Source: a virus. Taken from it: a DNA stretch of 41,705 nucleotides. Location: positions 1-41,705 of the IMG/VR virus record IMGVR_UViG_3300009506_000077. One strand, written 5' to 3'. The translations under genes were made by a program, and so were the position numbers. A model generated the notes under the pieces. The model was not told the DNA's origin. It worked only from the letters and a program-made list of their open reading frames with translations, and ran no database searches. Positions 28,648 through 34,509 of this stretch are shown here, one piece after another; position 1 is the stretch's first letter, and each line of letters begins with the position of its first letter.

Positions 28648-29458
28648 GACCTCCTAGGATTGCCTTGATAACAGCGGGCCGACACCATAGCCTTGCCCAC
28701 TGTTGCACTTCGCGCGGATACGCTATTTTGTCGTCCGGGTCTCGGTATAACTGGACGAACGGGATGCAGCCAGCATTCCACACCGCGCGAATGCGGGCCT
28801 CTATTCTCTCTAGTGGTTCCTCGTGAGGTTTGGCGAGAACGTAGCAGTACAACTTGTTGCGTCCCAGCCATGATAGGATGCGTGCCGCTTCACGCAGTGG
28901 GTCAATGGAGCTTTCACGGTCACAGGCAAGCCACGCTGAGGCCACCCGGATGCGACGCAGGGCTTCGGATAGCTGCTCGGTCACAAGATCAGCCTGAAAG
29001 CCACCCCGGAAGTCGGCAGCCCTTGACTGCTTATTGAGCATGGAGAACACGGCCTGCTGGTGCTGCCACGAGCATTGAAGTAGGTTGTTGTCCTGTATGA
29101 TATGACCAGCGCAGATCGGAAGTTCGCGCAGCGTTCCCTCTCGTTCTGGAACAAAACACTCCGGGCAATGGTTCTCGCAACCCCGGCTTGTGAAGGTTAT
29201 GCCTTGCCTGACGAACATACCCGGCGTGAAGGTGTTGCATGGTGATCCGTAGGCGGGGCCGCCCAATTCCACATCTGAGTAGTATTGCGACCACGCTTCG
29301 GCCAGATACTCAGACTCCTTCCGGTCCCATGTGAAGCAGCAGGAGACCATGACCTTGTCGGCCTCTGGGCGCTCCAGCGGAGGCGGGCCGATGAAGGCGA
29401 GATTGTCGGTTGGCGTGTAGGACGTGCGCTGCGGGAAGACGCGAAGTACGCGCATCAT
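28580..29458 (-). CDS. Phage radical SAM protein, 292 aa
   Basis: The cluster TFTSRGCENHCPECFVPERE contains C-x3-C-x2-C, the [4Fe-4S]-binding signature of radical SAM enzymes. The N-terminus MMRVLRVFPQRTSYTPTDNL and the segment ELPICAGHIIQDNNLLQCSW match a phage-encoded radical SAM family I know from many metagenomic phages. An ACDRESSIDPL strand and RLWELG-type C-terminal region complete a partial TIM barrel. The substrate is unknown. It starts with an ATGA overlap on the methyltransferase stop, so it is coupled to it. Works only under reducing conditions, which hints at an anaerobic host. Confidence 0.8.
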   Translation of the reverse strand: MMRVLRVFPQRTSYTPTDNLAFIGPPPLERPEADKVMVSCCFTWDRKESEYLAEAWSQYYSDVELGGPAYGSPCNTFTPGMFVRQGITFTSRGCENHCPECFVPEREGTLRELPICAGHIIQDNNLLQCSWQHQQAVFSMLNKQSRAADFRGGFQADLVTEQLSEALRRIRVASAWLACDRESSIDPLREAARILSWLGRNKLYCYVLAKPHEEPLERIEARIRAVWNAGCIPFVQLYRDPDDKIAYPREVQQWARLWCRPAVIKAILGGHDARPPTALADPAYPLAAPGCR

Positions 29459-30597
29459 TTCATCTCCATCAGCAGCTGTCTGAGTCTTTCGACTGCCACC
29501 TGACACCATTGCTCGTCGAGTTCAATGCCCACCATTTTGATTCCCAATCGCTTCGCAGCCACCAGTGTGCTACCCGAACCCATGAACGGGTCGCAGAACA
29601 AGCCGCCGGTTGGAGTAGACACAAGCTTGATAAGATAGTGCATCAGGTCTGAGGGCTTGACGGTAGGGTGCTGCGGCAACTTGCGGCCTTCGCTGTCACG
29701 CTTTTGGCGGTCGCCGTTCCCGGCCTTCGCCGTGTAGAAGAAGCGGGAGGCGCCAGAAAGACCATCCCTTTCACCATGAAACCCTGTTACTAGGTCTGTG
29801 CCTTTACCGCCTCCGAATATGGCGTTAGCGGTGCGGCGCGATGACCAATGTCCATTGCCTACAGCACCGCTCTGCTCGTCCAGCATGGCGGCGGCGTCCT
29901 CATCCAACAGCAGGTTCGCGGGGTAACGGCCGCGCATAGTTTCTCCAAGCTGGCGCGACCCATGGATGCCACTGCCATAGACTGCCCCATCCATGGCTTT
30001 GTCATTGCGGCATTGTATGTGTGGTCGCGGTGTCTCTGTCGCAGTCCTGCACCCGTCCACATTCAAGCCAGCTACCCCATGTGCCAGCGCATTGTGCGCG
30101 TAGGTGCCATCAAGCGGCTTCATCGCCCACAACACCGGCTCCCAGGCGGGCTTCAAGCAGGACCCCCACGATTCCAGACCGCCTGCCATATCTACGCCGT
30201 GCAGGTGGCCGTAGTCCGTCTCAGCCATGACCGCCCTGCCCACATTGCGGGATTTCGGGAATCCCTGCCCGTACAGCCACATGAGCGTATCCCGAATCTC
30301 CCATCCGGCATCCTCGATCGCGCACGCCAGCCGGTGCCATGTGCGGGTGCCTGAGAAGGCTAGAAGGTTCGCTCCGGGCTTGCAGACATCCGATAATATG
30401 CACCAGAAGTATTCGCCGGGAACCTGCCTGTCCCAATCCTTGCCCATGAACTCCAGACCGTAGGGTGGGTCAGTGACAATGCCATCAAAGCCTATGTCCA
30501 GCTTGGGCAGCACCTCCCGGCAGTCGCCGTGGGCGATGGCGACCGAGGCGTCAGAGTAATACCACTTCACGCCAGTAGGGGGCCAAAGGTCTATCAT
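29455..30597 (-). CDS. Beta-class DNA N6-adenine/N4-cytosine methyltransferase
   Basis: A 380-residue protein. The catalytic motif IV TDPPYGLEFMGKDWD lies near residue 35 and the SAM-binding motif I FCDPFMGSGSTLVAAKRLGI near 330-350, preceded by HPTVKPSDLMHYLIKLV. Motif IV before motif I defines the beta class, usually N6-adenine or N4-cytosine. The middle (about 130-290) is the target-recognition part. Start at 30597 is supported by the ATGA overlap with the upstream gene. No cognate nuclease lies beside it except the VRR-NUC, so this is likely an orphan phage modification enzyme that protects DNA from host restriction. Confidence 0.88.
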   Translation of the reverse strand: MIDLWPPTGVKWYYSDASVAIAHGDCREVLPKLDIGFDGIVTDPPYGLEFMGKDWDRQVPGEYFWCILSDVCKPGANLLAFSGTRTWHRLACAIEDAGWEIRDTLMWLYGQGFPKSRNVGRAVMAETDYGHLHGVDMAGGLESWGSCLKPAWEPVLWAMKPLDGTYAHNALAHGVAGLNVDGCRTATETPRPHIQCRNDKAMDGAVYGSGIHGSRQLGETMRGRYPANLLLDEDAAAMLDEQSGAVGNGHWSSRRTANAIFGGGKGTDLVTGFHGERDGLSGASRFFYTAKAGNGDRQKRDSEGRKLPQHPTVKPSDLMHYLIKLVSTPTGGLFCDPFMGSGSTLVAAKRLGIKMVGIELDEQWCQVAVERLRQLLMEMK

Positions 30598-31112
30598 CTC
30601 ATCTCCAGCGGCAGCGACACCGCATCTATGCGATGTGCCGGGTCCGTTTTTCCTCGGTATGTGGCTCTTGAAGATGCCCGGCACCGGGAACACGTGAGGT
30701 GCTTGCTATCGTCACGGTCCCTGCCACATTCCGTGCACAGTCCAGATTTCTTGAACCTACGCCTCACCCGTCGTCGCACTGCGTTGTAACGCTCCCGGTT
30801 GAAACTTCGCTTCACGGCCTCATCTTGGCGCTGTCGACAGCGATGGCAGTATATGATGTCATCAAATCCGCGTTTACCACCGCAGACCGGGCAAAGGCCA
30901 TGGCTCAGGCGATCGTTGTACAGTCGTTGGCGACGTTCCCGTTTTACCGCTAGGCACCGACGGCACATGCGGTGCCCTTCGCTCGGTGGCCTTCTTCCAC
31001 ACTGGAGACACAGGCCAGCTTCTAGCCGTTCCCGCTGGCATTTTCTCCACCTGCTCGTGTCCATCACAAGCACCATCCGCGCCACTCCCGGCTCCTCGTA
31101 GAAGGCGGTCAC
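30594..31112 (-). CDS. Triple zinc-ribbon basic protein, 172 aa
   Basis: Three successive ribbons: GLCLQCGRRPPSEGHRMCRR with its final Cys, GLCPVCGGKRGFDDIIYCHR with its final Cys, and GLCTECGRDRDDSKHLTCSR with its final Cys. Linkers are very basic (RQRLYNDRLSHG; RYNAVRRRVRRRFKKS). GTG start at 31112 overlaps the C5 methyltransferase stop as GTGA. It sits between two DNA methyltransferases. Repeated G-L-C-x-x-C-G units with Arg-rich spacers occur in many phage/plasmid proteins of unknown function; nucleic-acid binding is likely. Confidence 0.7.
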   Translation of the reverse strand: MTAFYEEPGVARMVLVMDTSRWRKCQRERLEAGLCLQCGRRPPSEGHRMCRRCLAVKRERRQRLYNDRLSHGLCPVCGGKRGFDDIIYCHRCRQRQDEAVKRSFNRERYNAVRRRVRRRFKKSGLCTECGRDRDDSKHLTCSRCRASSRATYRGKTDPAHRIDAVSLPLEMR

Positions 31113-32209
31113 TGGCGGGCCTCTTGCTCGGCTATCGCCGCCAGTATCGGGTACACCTGTTGCGGCACGACTGCATTCCCCAGCACCTTCAGCTTGTTCA
31201 CTCGCCCTTCCCTTTCGTGCGCGAGCGGCGGCGGCATTTGCCAGTCTCCGCCGTACCAGTCGGGCAGTCCAGCCAGCCGGCCGGGAAGCCCATCATCCAG
31301 GCAACGAAGGCCGGATTGAGAGTGCCATTTCCGACCTCCCGATGAACATGCGAGGCGAGACTTGCATGTCGTATCACGTCCGTTTCGTGACGATCCGAAT
31401 CCGATGCCGACGGCATCGGGTATAGCCGCGCCACCTCCGCGCTCAGATACTTGCCGTGCGTTCCCGCTTCCTGACTCGGCGTTCTGTGCGTCGTCCTGTT
31501 CTCGTTGAGTGATGCTCGTGGTGTCGGCAGCAACGCCTTCAGCAACCCGCCCTCGTCCGGCCTGTCCTTCCCCTTGCTCATACGGTTGCCTATGGCATCG
31601 GCTACCGTCATTGTGGGCAACAATAAACACCCTGTCTCGCCTGTGCGGGGCGTTGACGGCGCAAGCTGGAACAATGACCGTCTCGCAGGCGTAGCCCGCA
31701 CCCTCCATGTCAGATAGCACACCGTCGAGGCCCATTGTGATGATTCCAGCAGGGTTCTCAAAACAGCACCAGTGAGGCTTGACCTCGGCAAGCACGCGGA
31801 TAGTCTCATGCCAGAGCCAACGGTCGTCCTTCTTGCCTCGTCGCTTCCCGGCGCAAGAAACGGGCTGGCAAGGAGGCGAAGCTGTGATGAGGGTGAGACC
31901 CTCTCTGATATTCGCTTTACCACTTGCGACAGATTGGAGCATCCGCCCTTTTTCCGCCTCAGAATAAGATTGCTGTCCGGGATGCTGAGGGCATCCATAG
32001 CCTGCGGCGTCGGCAAGAGCCTGTCGAACTGTGTCATCGGTCACGTCCTTCACATCTGGAATGATTGGTACTCCTGGCCAGTGGTGGCGTAGCACGACTT
32101 GACACCACGGGTCAATCTCACATAGCAGCACGGTGCGGAAGCCGGACCACTCAGCGGCAAGATCGAAGCCGCCCACGCCCGAAAATAGGCTGACATTGGT
32201 GAGGGTCAT
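31109..32209 (-). CDS. dcm: DNA (cytosine-5) methyltransferase
   Basis: A 366-residue enzyme that transfers a methyl group from SAM to C5 of cytosine. Motif I SLFSGVGGFDLA is at 7-18, motif IV SPPCQPVS at 111-118 with catalytic Cys 114, motif VI ENP at 151-153 (ENV in most), motif VIII CAVNAPHRRDRVFIVAH at 183-199, and motifs IX/X KLKVLGNAVVPQQVYPILAA near the C-terminus. A low-complexity target-recognition region lies at 205-300. Start at 32209 is set by ATGA overlap with the VRR-NUC gene. A 50-residue insertion sits between motifs II and IV. Probably an orphan anti-restriction enzyme. A second ORF runs inside it in another frame. Confidence 0.92.
   Translation of the reverse strand: MTLTNVSLFSGVGGFDLAAEWSGFRTVLLCEIDPWCQVVLRHHWPGVPIIPDVKDVTDDTVRQALADAAGYGCPQHPGQQSYSEAEKGRMLQSVASGKANIREGLTLITASPPCQPVSCAGKRRGKKDDRWLWHETIRVLAEVKPHWCCFENPAGIITMGLDGVLSDMEGAGYACETVIVPACAVNAPHRRDRVFIVAHNDGSRCHRQPYEQGEGQAGRGRVAEGVAADTTSITQREQDDAQNAESGSGNARQVSERGGGAAIPDAVGIGFGSSRNGRDTTCKSRLACSSGGRKWHSQSGLRCLDDGLPGRLAGLPDWYGGDWQMPPPLAHEREGRVNKLKVLGNAVVPQQVYPILAAIAEQEARQ
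31198..32037 (-). CDS. Nested ORF inside dcm, LLPTP/LNPxFVxWMMGFP family-like, 279 aa
   Basis: Same strand as the C5 methyltransferase, shifted by one base, open for 279 codons from ATG 32037 with GAAGGA eight bases upstream. The product has MTQFDRLLPTPQAMDAL, TLLESSQWASTVCYLTWRVR, SLFQLAPSTPRTGETGCLLL, LLPTPRASLNENRT, LSAEVARLYPMPSASDSDRH and GTLNPAFVAWMMGFPAGWLD. From memory these blocks (L-T-W-x-x-x-x-T-x-x-R-x-L-F-Q-L-A-P-S-x-P-R-T, repeated L-P-T-P-x-A-S-D, L-N-P-x-F-V-x-W-M-M-G-F-P-x-G-W) occur in proteins annotated around phage methyltransferases. Either a genuinely dual-coded protein, or a widespread spurious ORF that databases have propagated. Confidence 0.4.
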   Translation of the reverse strand: MTQFDRLLPTPQAMDALSIPDSNLILRRKKGGCSNLSQVVKRISERVSPSSQLRLLASPFLAPGSDEARRTTVGSGMRLSACLPRSSLTGAVLRTLLESSQWASTVCYLTWRVRATPARRSLFQLAPSTPRTGETGCLLLPTMTVADAIGNRMSKGKDRPDEGGLLKALLPTPRASLNENRTTHRTPSQEAGTHGKYLSAEVARLYPMPSASDSDRHETDVIRHASLASHVHREVGNGTLNPAFVAWMMGFPAGWLDCPTGTAETGKCRRRSRTKGKGE

Positions 32210-32556
32210 GCCAGCGTCCTCTCCGTTTCTGCGCGGTCCCTGGGTTCCCAGCAATACCACTCCGCACTTGCCCCTTGTAGACAGTCCTTCCAGGCGACCT
32301 GCTCAGGTGACAAGCGACCCCAGTGCGCCTTCACTTCTATAAACACCACGCGTTCACGCACGAGTACGAGGTCCGGGAATCCCGCACCGTCGCCGGCAAC
32401 CGCTGTCTGCCACTTGCCGCGCATGTTGAGCCCGGGCCGGAAGTGGGCGACCATCCACCCTTTCAGGTGCGCGTACTCTATGATGTTGGCTTGCCACTGT
32501 ACCTCGGACAGCGAGTCCGCCAGCAGTTGCGCCGCCGTGCGTCTGGGCCGGGTCAT
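32206..32556 (-). CDS. VRR-NUC domain nuclease
   Basis: A 116-residue protein with the PD-(D/E)XK layout of VRR-NUC: SEVQWQANIIEYAHLKGWMV (helix with the conserved Gln/Glu), FRPGLNMRGKW, DGAGFPDLVLVR (catalytic Asp), then VVFIEVKAHWGRLSPEQVAW (Glu-x-Lys and the following Ser-x-x-Q-x-x-W). Standalone phage VRR-NUC proteins are taken to act as structure-specific endonucleases in replication or recombination. It lies directly upstream of dcm (ATGA overlap), so a modification/restriction role is conceivable but not supported by its small size. Confidence 0.88.
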   Translation of the reverse strand: MTRPRRTAAQLLADSLSEVQWQANIIEYAHLKGWMVAHFRPGLNMRGKWQTAVAGDGAGFPDLVLVRERVVFIEVKAHWGRLSPEQVAWKDCLQGASAEWYCWEPRDRAETERTLA

Positions 32557-33328: not shown

Positions 33329-34237
33329 TTACTCCCTTTCGTCCAGCTCGGACCGGTCCCCGGACGAGGGCGGTGGACTCTCCCCCCATGCAGGGGCATG
33401 CTGATGCCCGCAGCCTCTGATCCTTGGGCAGTAATCCGGCTTCTGAGGGTCGCAATCACAGTCGGTATAGGGGCATGTATCCTTCACCTCCTGCCGCAGT
33501 TCTTGGCCAGGATAAAGTGGCTGGAGGCTGTTCTTCAGGAATACGGCCGCGCCTACTCCGCTTGCAGCCCATAGCACACCGTTAATCCAGTTGCGTTCCG
33601 CTGGTAGTGATGGCTTCGTCTGCGAACCAACGATGACCCAGGATATTCCGGCACGTTCCAGTTCTACGCCGGTCATGCTCAGTTCCTCAAGAAGCGGCTC
33701 ACAACTGAGAAACTTCACGCTGGCCTTGACCTTGCCCAGGAAGTGGAGTGCTGGGGCAAGGAACTTCTGCCGTGTCACGGTCACCCCGACCCAGCAGTTA
33801 GGCGGGAAGGACGACCACTGTGCGAGGTTCTGAGGCTGTTTTGTCAGTAGGTAGAAACGGTGCCGCTCATTCCAGTAGAGCTTATTCATTACTTGCCGCG
33901 TCCAATCCCAGGGTACGCCAAGGCCGAACAGGTCGCCCATGTCACAGACGAAGATGCCCTTTGGACGCTCGCCGAAACTGTCGTCCAGCTTCCCCGGCCA
34001 GAAGCGCGGGTAGAAGGGATCGCGTGGATTCTCAATTACCGCTACGCCGCGGCTTGCGCTGGGAATCGTATAAACGTGCTTCAGCCTCCCATGCGCCAGC
34101 TGGTAGGCATAGCACGGGAAGCCGCCGCCCCGGCAGATGCCGTGGTCGTGGTTAAGGCAGCCGGTTATGGGATTCCAAGTATAGCCCGGGCTGCCGTTTG
34201 GGTTCTTGACCCACTCTATTTTCGTATGGCTGTTCAC
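33329..34237 (-). CDS. Phage Gp37/Gp68 family (DUF5131) protein
   Basis: A 302-residue protein. It begins with NSHTKIEWVKNPNGSPGYTW and NPITGCLNHDHGICRGGGFP, which holds the three conserved Cys residues of this family. GIFVCDMGDLFGLGVPWDWT, FYLLTKQPQNLAQW and WVGVTVTRQ, then VKFLSCEPLLEEL and GISWVIVGSQT follow the same family pattern. The family is thought to be radical-SAM-like because of its Cys cluster and TIM-like strands; no activity is proven to my knowledge. The C-terminal ~50 residues add seven more Cys (CPYTDCDCDPQKPDYCPRIR region), an unusual extension. GTG start by GTGA overlap. Confidence 0.82.
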   Translation of the reverse strand: MNSHTKIEWVKNPNGSPGYTWNPITGCLNHDHGICRGGGFPCYAYQLAHGRLKHVYTIPSASRGVAVIENPRDPFYPRFWPGKLDDSFGERPKGIFVCDMGDLFGLGVPWDWTRQVMNKLYWNERHRFYLLTKQPQNLAQWSSFPPNCWVGVTVTRQKFLAPALHFLGKVKASVKFLSCEPLLEELSMTGVELERAGISWVIVGSQTKPSLPAERNWINGVLWAASGVGAAVFLKNSLQPLYPGQELRQEVKDTCPYTDCDCDPQKPDYCPRIRGCGHQHAPAWGESPPPSSGDRSELDERE

Positions 34238-34509
34238 TTCCCGCTCCCTTCCTTGGCGAGCTCCAGGCCCGCTTCTTTGGCCCATGCCGAGAATAGCTTA
34301 CCAAGTTGCTCGGGCGTCGTGTCGGGCGGCATAGACGCTATGAAACTCATCATTCCTTTGACTCCGGCCGCATAGCTCGCGCGGGCTTGGGCTTCCAGAA
34401 GTTCCGTTATGGGAATATGGAGGATGATGTCACTCCTGCCGTCTTCGGACCACTGCTGCCGGACCTTGAGCTTCTTCAGACTGAGTACGCTGTCCTTCCA
34501 ATGGCTCAC
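34234..34509 (-). CDS. Hypothetical protein, 91 aa
   Basis: An N-terminal beta part (SVLSLKKLKVRQQWSEDG, ILHIPITELLEAQARASYAA) precedes helices and a tail ending LAKEGSGK. The same last eight residues end the upstream gene product, and the DNA around both stops is identical over 21 bases (34234-34254 and 34506-34526). Coupled by GTGA on both sides. Not recognised. Confidence 0.5.
   Translation of the reverse strand: MSHWKDSVLSLKKLKVRQQWSEDGRSDIILHIPITELLEAQARASYAAGVKGMMSFIASMPPDTTPEQLGKLFSAWAKEAGLELAKEGSGK

Follow-up and report, generated by a model that had tools for sequence, protein, structure and literature searches.

One phage gene very probably encodes a two-subunit C5-cytosine methyltransferase (C5-MTase) in two overlapping reading frames. 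The gene lies in our window, that is, the whole 41,705-nucleotide stretch of viral DNA that was analysed (IMG/VR record IMGVR_UViG_3300009506_000077). In the arrangement that we propose, the alpha chain, read in the dcm frame, would be the large domain responsible for SAM binding and catalysis, with motifs I–VIII followed by a disordered linker and then motif X. The beta chain (279 aa, +1 frame) would start internally, at an ATG with a Shine-Dalgarno (SD) sequence before motif IV, and would supply the small domain; its layout would comprise a conserved N-terminal part over motifs IV–VIII, a variable region for target recognition that holds LPTPxAxD modules, and motif IX. Alpha and beta, both presumably needed, would join to form a single enzyme for cytosine methylation of phage or host DNA, with target specificity residing in beta, and this methylation would probably shield phage DNA from restriction. 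The first-pass annotation had instead read the locus as a complete enzyme accompanied by a merely linked extra protein; our results point to a single enzyme in two halves, of which the nested one includes the variable region and motif IX.

The two frames of the dcm locus

The features of the locus are as follows.

31109–32260 (−): alpha ORF in the dcm frame, C5-MTase large domain, motifs I–VIII and X
31198–32037 (−): beta ORF, nested in the +1 frame, 279 aa, ATG start, most likely the small-domain subunit
32046–32051 (−): GAAGGA, SD-like, 8 bases 5' of the nested ATG
31610–32203 (−): alpha residues 20–217, catalytic domain with motifs I–VIII, AlphaFold2 (AF2) mostly of high confidence
31247–31600 (−): alpha residues 221–338, predicted disordered linker, pLDDT about 33–47; the nested frame is constrained here
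31115–31216 (−): alpha residues 349–382, motif X (KVLGNAVVPQQ...), AF2 pLDDT mostly 86–96, conservation in A2 and A6
31654–31716 (−): beta residues 108–128, conserved beta-hairpin YLTWRVRATPARRSLFQLAPS, pLDDT blocks 94 and 88, conservation in A3 and A4
31423–31533 (−): beta residues 169–205, LLPTPRAS... module, also found in actinobacterial-type viral enzymes
31267–31329 (−): beta residues 237–257, NGTLNPAFVAWMMGFPAGWLD, predicted C5-MTase motif IX (from hhalign, a motif IX HMM and position divergence)

The alpha product, which likely starts at the ATG at 32209, matched PF00145 (E 3e-34), and M.HhaI 10–181 aligns to the family profile, which is the basis for the alpha catalytic domain. The AF2 model of alpha was largely confident over residues 20–217, disordered over 221–338, and confident again in the motif X segment near the C-terminus. 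Foldseek searches with this model matched M.HhaI and M.HaeIII; by sequence and by predicted fold, alpha is related to the large domain of these monomeric C5-MTases (PF00145). In monomeric enzymes a single chain holds motifs I–VIII together with the target-recognition domain (TRD) and motif IX; this is not the case for the window alpha, and the model predicts that alpha has no ordered small domain of its own.

Much of what had been noted earlier about the nested ORF is borne out by the sequence, including its 279 codons, its ATG, its offset of one base from the dcm ORF on the same (−) strand, and the GAAGGA eight bases upstream (start context TGAAGGACGTGACCG-ATG). The product contains LFQLAPSTPRT, repeated LLPTP and LNPAFVAWMMGFPAGWLD, and QLAPSTPRTGETG does overlap motif VIII, as had been stated; the beta-hairpin at residues 108–128 overlaps alpha just upstream of and at this motif. 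The suspected resemblance to a known phage family also held, since the beta product matched PHROG_1008 'DNA methyltransferase' (E 1.8e-32). We found no models for beta in Pfam and NCBIfam.

Three neighbouring genes, all on the same strand, were recorded. An N6/N4 DNA methyltransferase gene (PF01555, E 2.9e-24; 29455–30693, −) lies nearby downstream of dcm, giving the phage a pair of closely spaced DNA methyltransferase genes of different kinds. A VRR-NUC domain gene (PF08774; 32206–32556, −) is directly upstream and overlaps the alpha ORF around the alpha start, and a gene for a DUF5131 protein (PF07505, E 2.6e-34) is found at 33329–34285 (−).

Dual coding in the +1 frame

The nested ORF is real and protein-coding. 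To sample dcm genes blind to the +1 frame, viral loci were retrieved with the dcm protein alignment only, using back-translated patterns that allow all synonymous codons. A strong nested-family match was present at exactly +1 in 80/80 of the loci selected in this way. These 80 ranked highest among 520 loci in their likeness to the window dcm, and so describe this dcm type rather than all phage C5-MTases. We then swapped dcm codons among synonymous positions, leaving protein and codon usage unchanged, and called a +1 ORF significant when an equally long one arose in at most 2 of 200 shuffles. The length of the +1 ORF was significant in 74/81 genes (3/81 for the +2 control frame), and 483 stops were observed in the +1 frame over the 81 genes vs 802 expected. 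For the window dcm itself, an equally long +1 ORF was kept in 3/10,000 synonymous shuffles. Monomeric C5-MTases showed no such excess, with 0/54 significant among those from bacterial genomes (1073 +1 stops vs 1085 expected) and 0/70 among viral ones (1373 vs 1365), unlike the split-type genes obtained from the same searches as the bacterial monomers (8/10 significant).

The first-pass annotation had left two options, namely that overprinting of a second protein is widespread among phage dcm genes or that a whole protein family is a frame artefact of dcm. Under the latter, conserved dcm residues and codon bias would suffice to keep the +1 frame open and similar among relatives. Some of the nested signal does arise in this manner, as about 58 bits of the nested HMM score survive synonymous shuffling, which the sharing of codon positions would lead one to expect. 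However, real genes averaged 169 bits vs 58 for shuffles, the lowest real gene (122 bits) scored above the highest of 4,050 shuffles (118 bits), and across the 81 genes none of the shuffles reached its own gene's nested-family score. With these shuffles and the monomeric controls, the artefact was rejected, and we consider it extremely improbable; the overprinted protein stands, given the 80/80 dcm-selected loci, the selection signal and the nested frame's own ribosome-binding sites.

The earlier suggestion to examine selection on the nested frame proved informative, in that a coding-type substitution pattern was found over the variable region and motif IX. It was obtained from frame-blind nucleotide alignments (349 pairs), whose divergences are descriptive rates because the pairs are phylogenetically non-independent and only gap-free blocks of 60% identity or more were admitted. 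Divergence at dcm codon positions 1/2/3 was as follows.

Motifs I–III (before the overlap):.207/.113/.497
Motifs V–VIII:.244/.120/.232
Variable region:.433/.222/.169
Nested WMMGFP block (motif IX):.241/.074/.091
Motif X:.156/.103/.522

Motifs I–III and X therefore show the normal dcm substitution pattern. Both frames are constrained over motifs V–VIII, and over IV–VIII divergence at dcm position 3 falls to.23–.37 vs.50 outside. In the variable region and the WMMGFP block, dcm third positions are slow and first positions fast, which is the pattern of coding in the nested frame; between motifs VIII and X the dcm frame evolves as a by-product of the nested frame. That dcm third positions are slowest in the variable region again argues against an artefact. 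So does a 37-residue stretch of the window beta (residues 169–205) which, when compared with viral loci L003–L005, is 78–84% identical in the nested frame and 19–41% in the dcm frame; for L004, nested codon positions of this module were conserved at.78/.84/.49. A 0-vs-340 count of stops in the dcm frame between motifs VIII and IX is biased, as the loci had been chosen for motif X in the dcm ORF, and it is excluded from our evidence.

Motif IX, genome context and likely expression of the nested protein

The dcm frame had been described as carrying the complete set of C5-MTase motifs. This did not hold, as motif IX is absent from the dcm frame and present in the nested one. The nested-frame stretch between alpha motifs VIII and X is closed by a block, LNPxFVxWMMGFPxGW, that resembles C5-MTase motif IX (in the monomers here, LTPRECARLMGFPD). 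An HMM of motif IX built from monomers gave 0 bits or more for 204/258 nested sequences, 9/258 dcm frames and 1/258 shuffled nested sequences; its median was 2 bits, so per-sequence similarity is weak. When nested and monomeric alignments were compared with hhalign, the motif IX block was the sole paired segment (probability 1.1%). Among PDB chains, the IX–X segment of locus L003 matched DNA methyltransferases only (4onj and 4onq), weakly (E 0.5). For the L100 type, the sole PDB match of the IX–X segment was judged to be due to chance. The AF2 model of beta alone was poor (pTM 0.26), too poor for a fold search.

The position of the halves varies between phages. In some of them the whole C-terminal half (variable region, motifs IX and X) sits in the beta frame; at L100, L172 and L223 the dcm frame ends after motif VIII, and IX and X are both in the nested frame. 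Mycobacterium phage Mundrea (78/77) and Streptomyces phage Euratis (33/34) have these two halves in neighbouring genes that barely overlap and are annotated 'DNA methylase'. The second genes of both pairs match PHROG_1008 and also match phrog_116 around 409–495, at the C-terminal part of the stretch (203–494) matched by the window dcm. Taken together, the motif IX block in beta, the occurrence of IX and X in the beta frame of the L100 type, and the Mundrea and Euratis halves suggest that the small-domain half, with the variable (target recognition) region and motif IX, is most likely encoded by the nested ORF.

Actinobacterial-type loci L003, L004, L005 and L008 have motif IX in the dcm frame (in L003 just before motif X), and the nested frame is thus not the carrier of IX there. 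At these four loci a long +1 ORF with LPTP modules is kept (about 250–330 codons), and it was non-significant in the shuffle test. At L255:2826-3792 there are two copies of motif IX, namely a degenerate one in the nested frame, which also holds motif X, and an intact one in the third frame; this layout looks like a recent frameshift or rearrangement.

It had also been proposed that relatives of the nested product be checked for overlap with dcm, and all screened loci overlap dcm in the same register (105/105 viral and phage loci and 80/80 bacterial-genome loci, retrieved largely by the nested family and sharing some contigs between sets). Groups named in the titles of the bacterial-genome loci include Bacillota, Bacteroidota, Pseudomonadota, Acidobacteria, Chloroflexota-type and candidate-phylum MAGs, and many of these loci are probably prophages. 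Both frames are annotated in some phage records (Bloom, K1ind2, PhiXhv-18) and one frame only in others (Klebsiella phage Soft); in databases, the second frame is a separate 'methyltransferase' or is omitted.

It is conceivable that the nested frame encodes a real overprinted protein with an independent function (anti-restriction, accessory or regulatory) that is only carried along with dcm. In favour of this, the nested frame has an internal ribosome-binding site of its own, and the N-terminal part of beta over motifs IV–VIII is unlike any known MTase part, with no match between the family profile and solved structures in the PDB. Nonetheless, at all of the 105 viral and phage and 80 genome loci the nested protein came with a dcm that overlaps or adjoins it. 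It has the motif IX that alpha is missing, in several phages also motif X, and alpha has no small domain of its own in the AF2 model. We regard an independent function as unlikely.

With regard to expression, a start preceding the nested core had a properly spaced SD match of 5 nt or longer at 138/258 loci, and the same criterion was satisfied by internal dcm-frame starts at 5/258. This contrast makes internal initiation the likely route by which beta is made. Alternatively, a programmed +1 frameshift after motif VIII might join the N-terminal part of alpha and the nested variable region with motif IX into a single-chain product. The switch of the constrained frame from alpha to nested after motif VIII would fit such a product, as would the nested frame running on to motif X in the Mundrea, Euratis and L100 types. 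However, constraint on the nested frame is already evident over motifs IV–VIII, upstream of such a shift, and nested starts with a good SD lie about 20–28 codons before the core in many loci. A frameshift product is therefore very unlikely in our view.

Putative recognition modules, known two-chain enzymes and implications

The nested-frame identity of the LLPTPRAS... module between the window and L003–L005 suggests that recognition modules may be exchanged between phages and offers a possible lead on specificity. By a simple regex, nested proteins hold 0 to 8 LPTPxAxD modules. In the window and in L001, an insertion between alpha motifs III and IV reads, in the nested frame, as extra LPTPxAxD-like modules (in the window LLPTPQAMDA, beta residues 7–16, 31990–32019, −), which places modules near the beta N-terminus as well. 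A bolder and tentative reading, to which we give clearly less than even chances, is that the nested frame is a modular specificity subunit whose LPTPxAxD modules serve as interchangeable units of target recognition and pass between unrelated phages.

The proposed enzyme would work by analogy with M.EcoHK31I (alpha/beta), the closest published case, whose beta ORF is reportedly embedded in the alpha gene and read in a different frame, as is the small chain at all of our screened loci. M.EcoHK31I (YGGCCR) consists of two polypeptides, of which the large one carries motifs I–VIII and X together with the predicted TRD, and the small one motif IX (PMC3404938); M.EaeI is its isoschizomer (Lee, Kam and Shaw 1995, as cited in PMC3404938). 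The large chain of the window type likewise has I–VIII and X without IX, and the small chain has motif IX, with weak per-sequence similarity. In contrast to the TRD predicted in the large chain of M.EcoHK31I, the window variable region is constrained in the nested frame and disordered in alpha. M.EcoHK31I was described as one restriction-modification enzyme, whereas the present arrangement is widespread in phages and probable prophages. In M.AquI (CYCGRG), the break falls within the variable region, some of which stays with the first chain while the remainder goes with IX–X (PMC3404938). The L100/L172/L223 type, Mundrea 78/77 and Euratis 33/34 are similar, with I–VIII and IX–X on separate chains; unlike M.AquI, the window type has motif X in alpha and beta wholly within the alpha gene. 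Our literature search found no report of a phage-wide two-frame arrangement.

What was an oddity known from one enzyme, M.EcoHK31I, would thus become a general coding strategy, seen at more than 200 phage, prophage and bacterial loci. PHROG_1008, which is matched by the window beta, the K1ind2 beta and the C-terminal genes of Mundrea and Euratis, bears a name with no subunit role and no mention of dcm overlap; it would gain a function as a predicted small-domain subunit. A pipeline that keeps just one of a pair of overlapping ORFs would discard half the enzyme, so that the methylation specificity of these phages could be neither assigned nor cloned correctly. If the modular reading were true, phages would alter methylation specificity through one frame and leave the other to the catalytic protein, in which the module DNA is a mere disordered linker. 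For the study of dual coding, the locus type is an extensive case that lends itself to testing, with two frames that would divide one enzyme between them.
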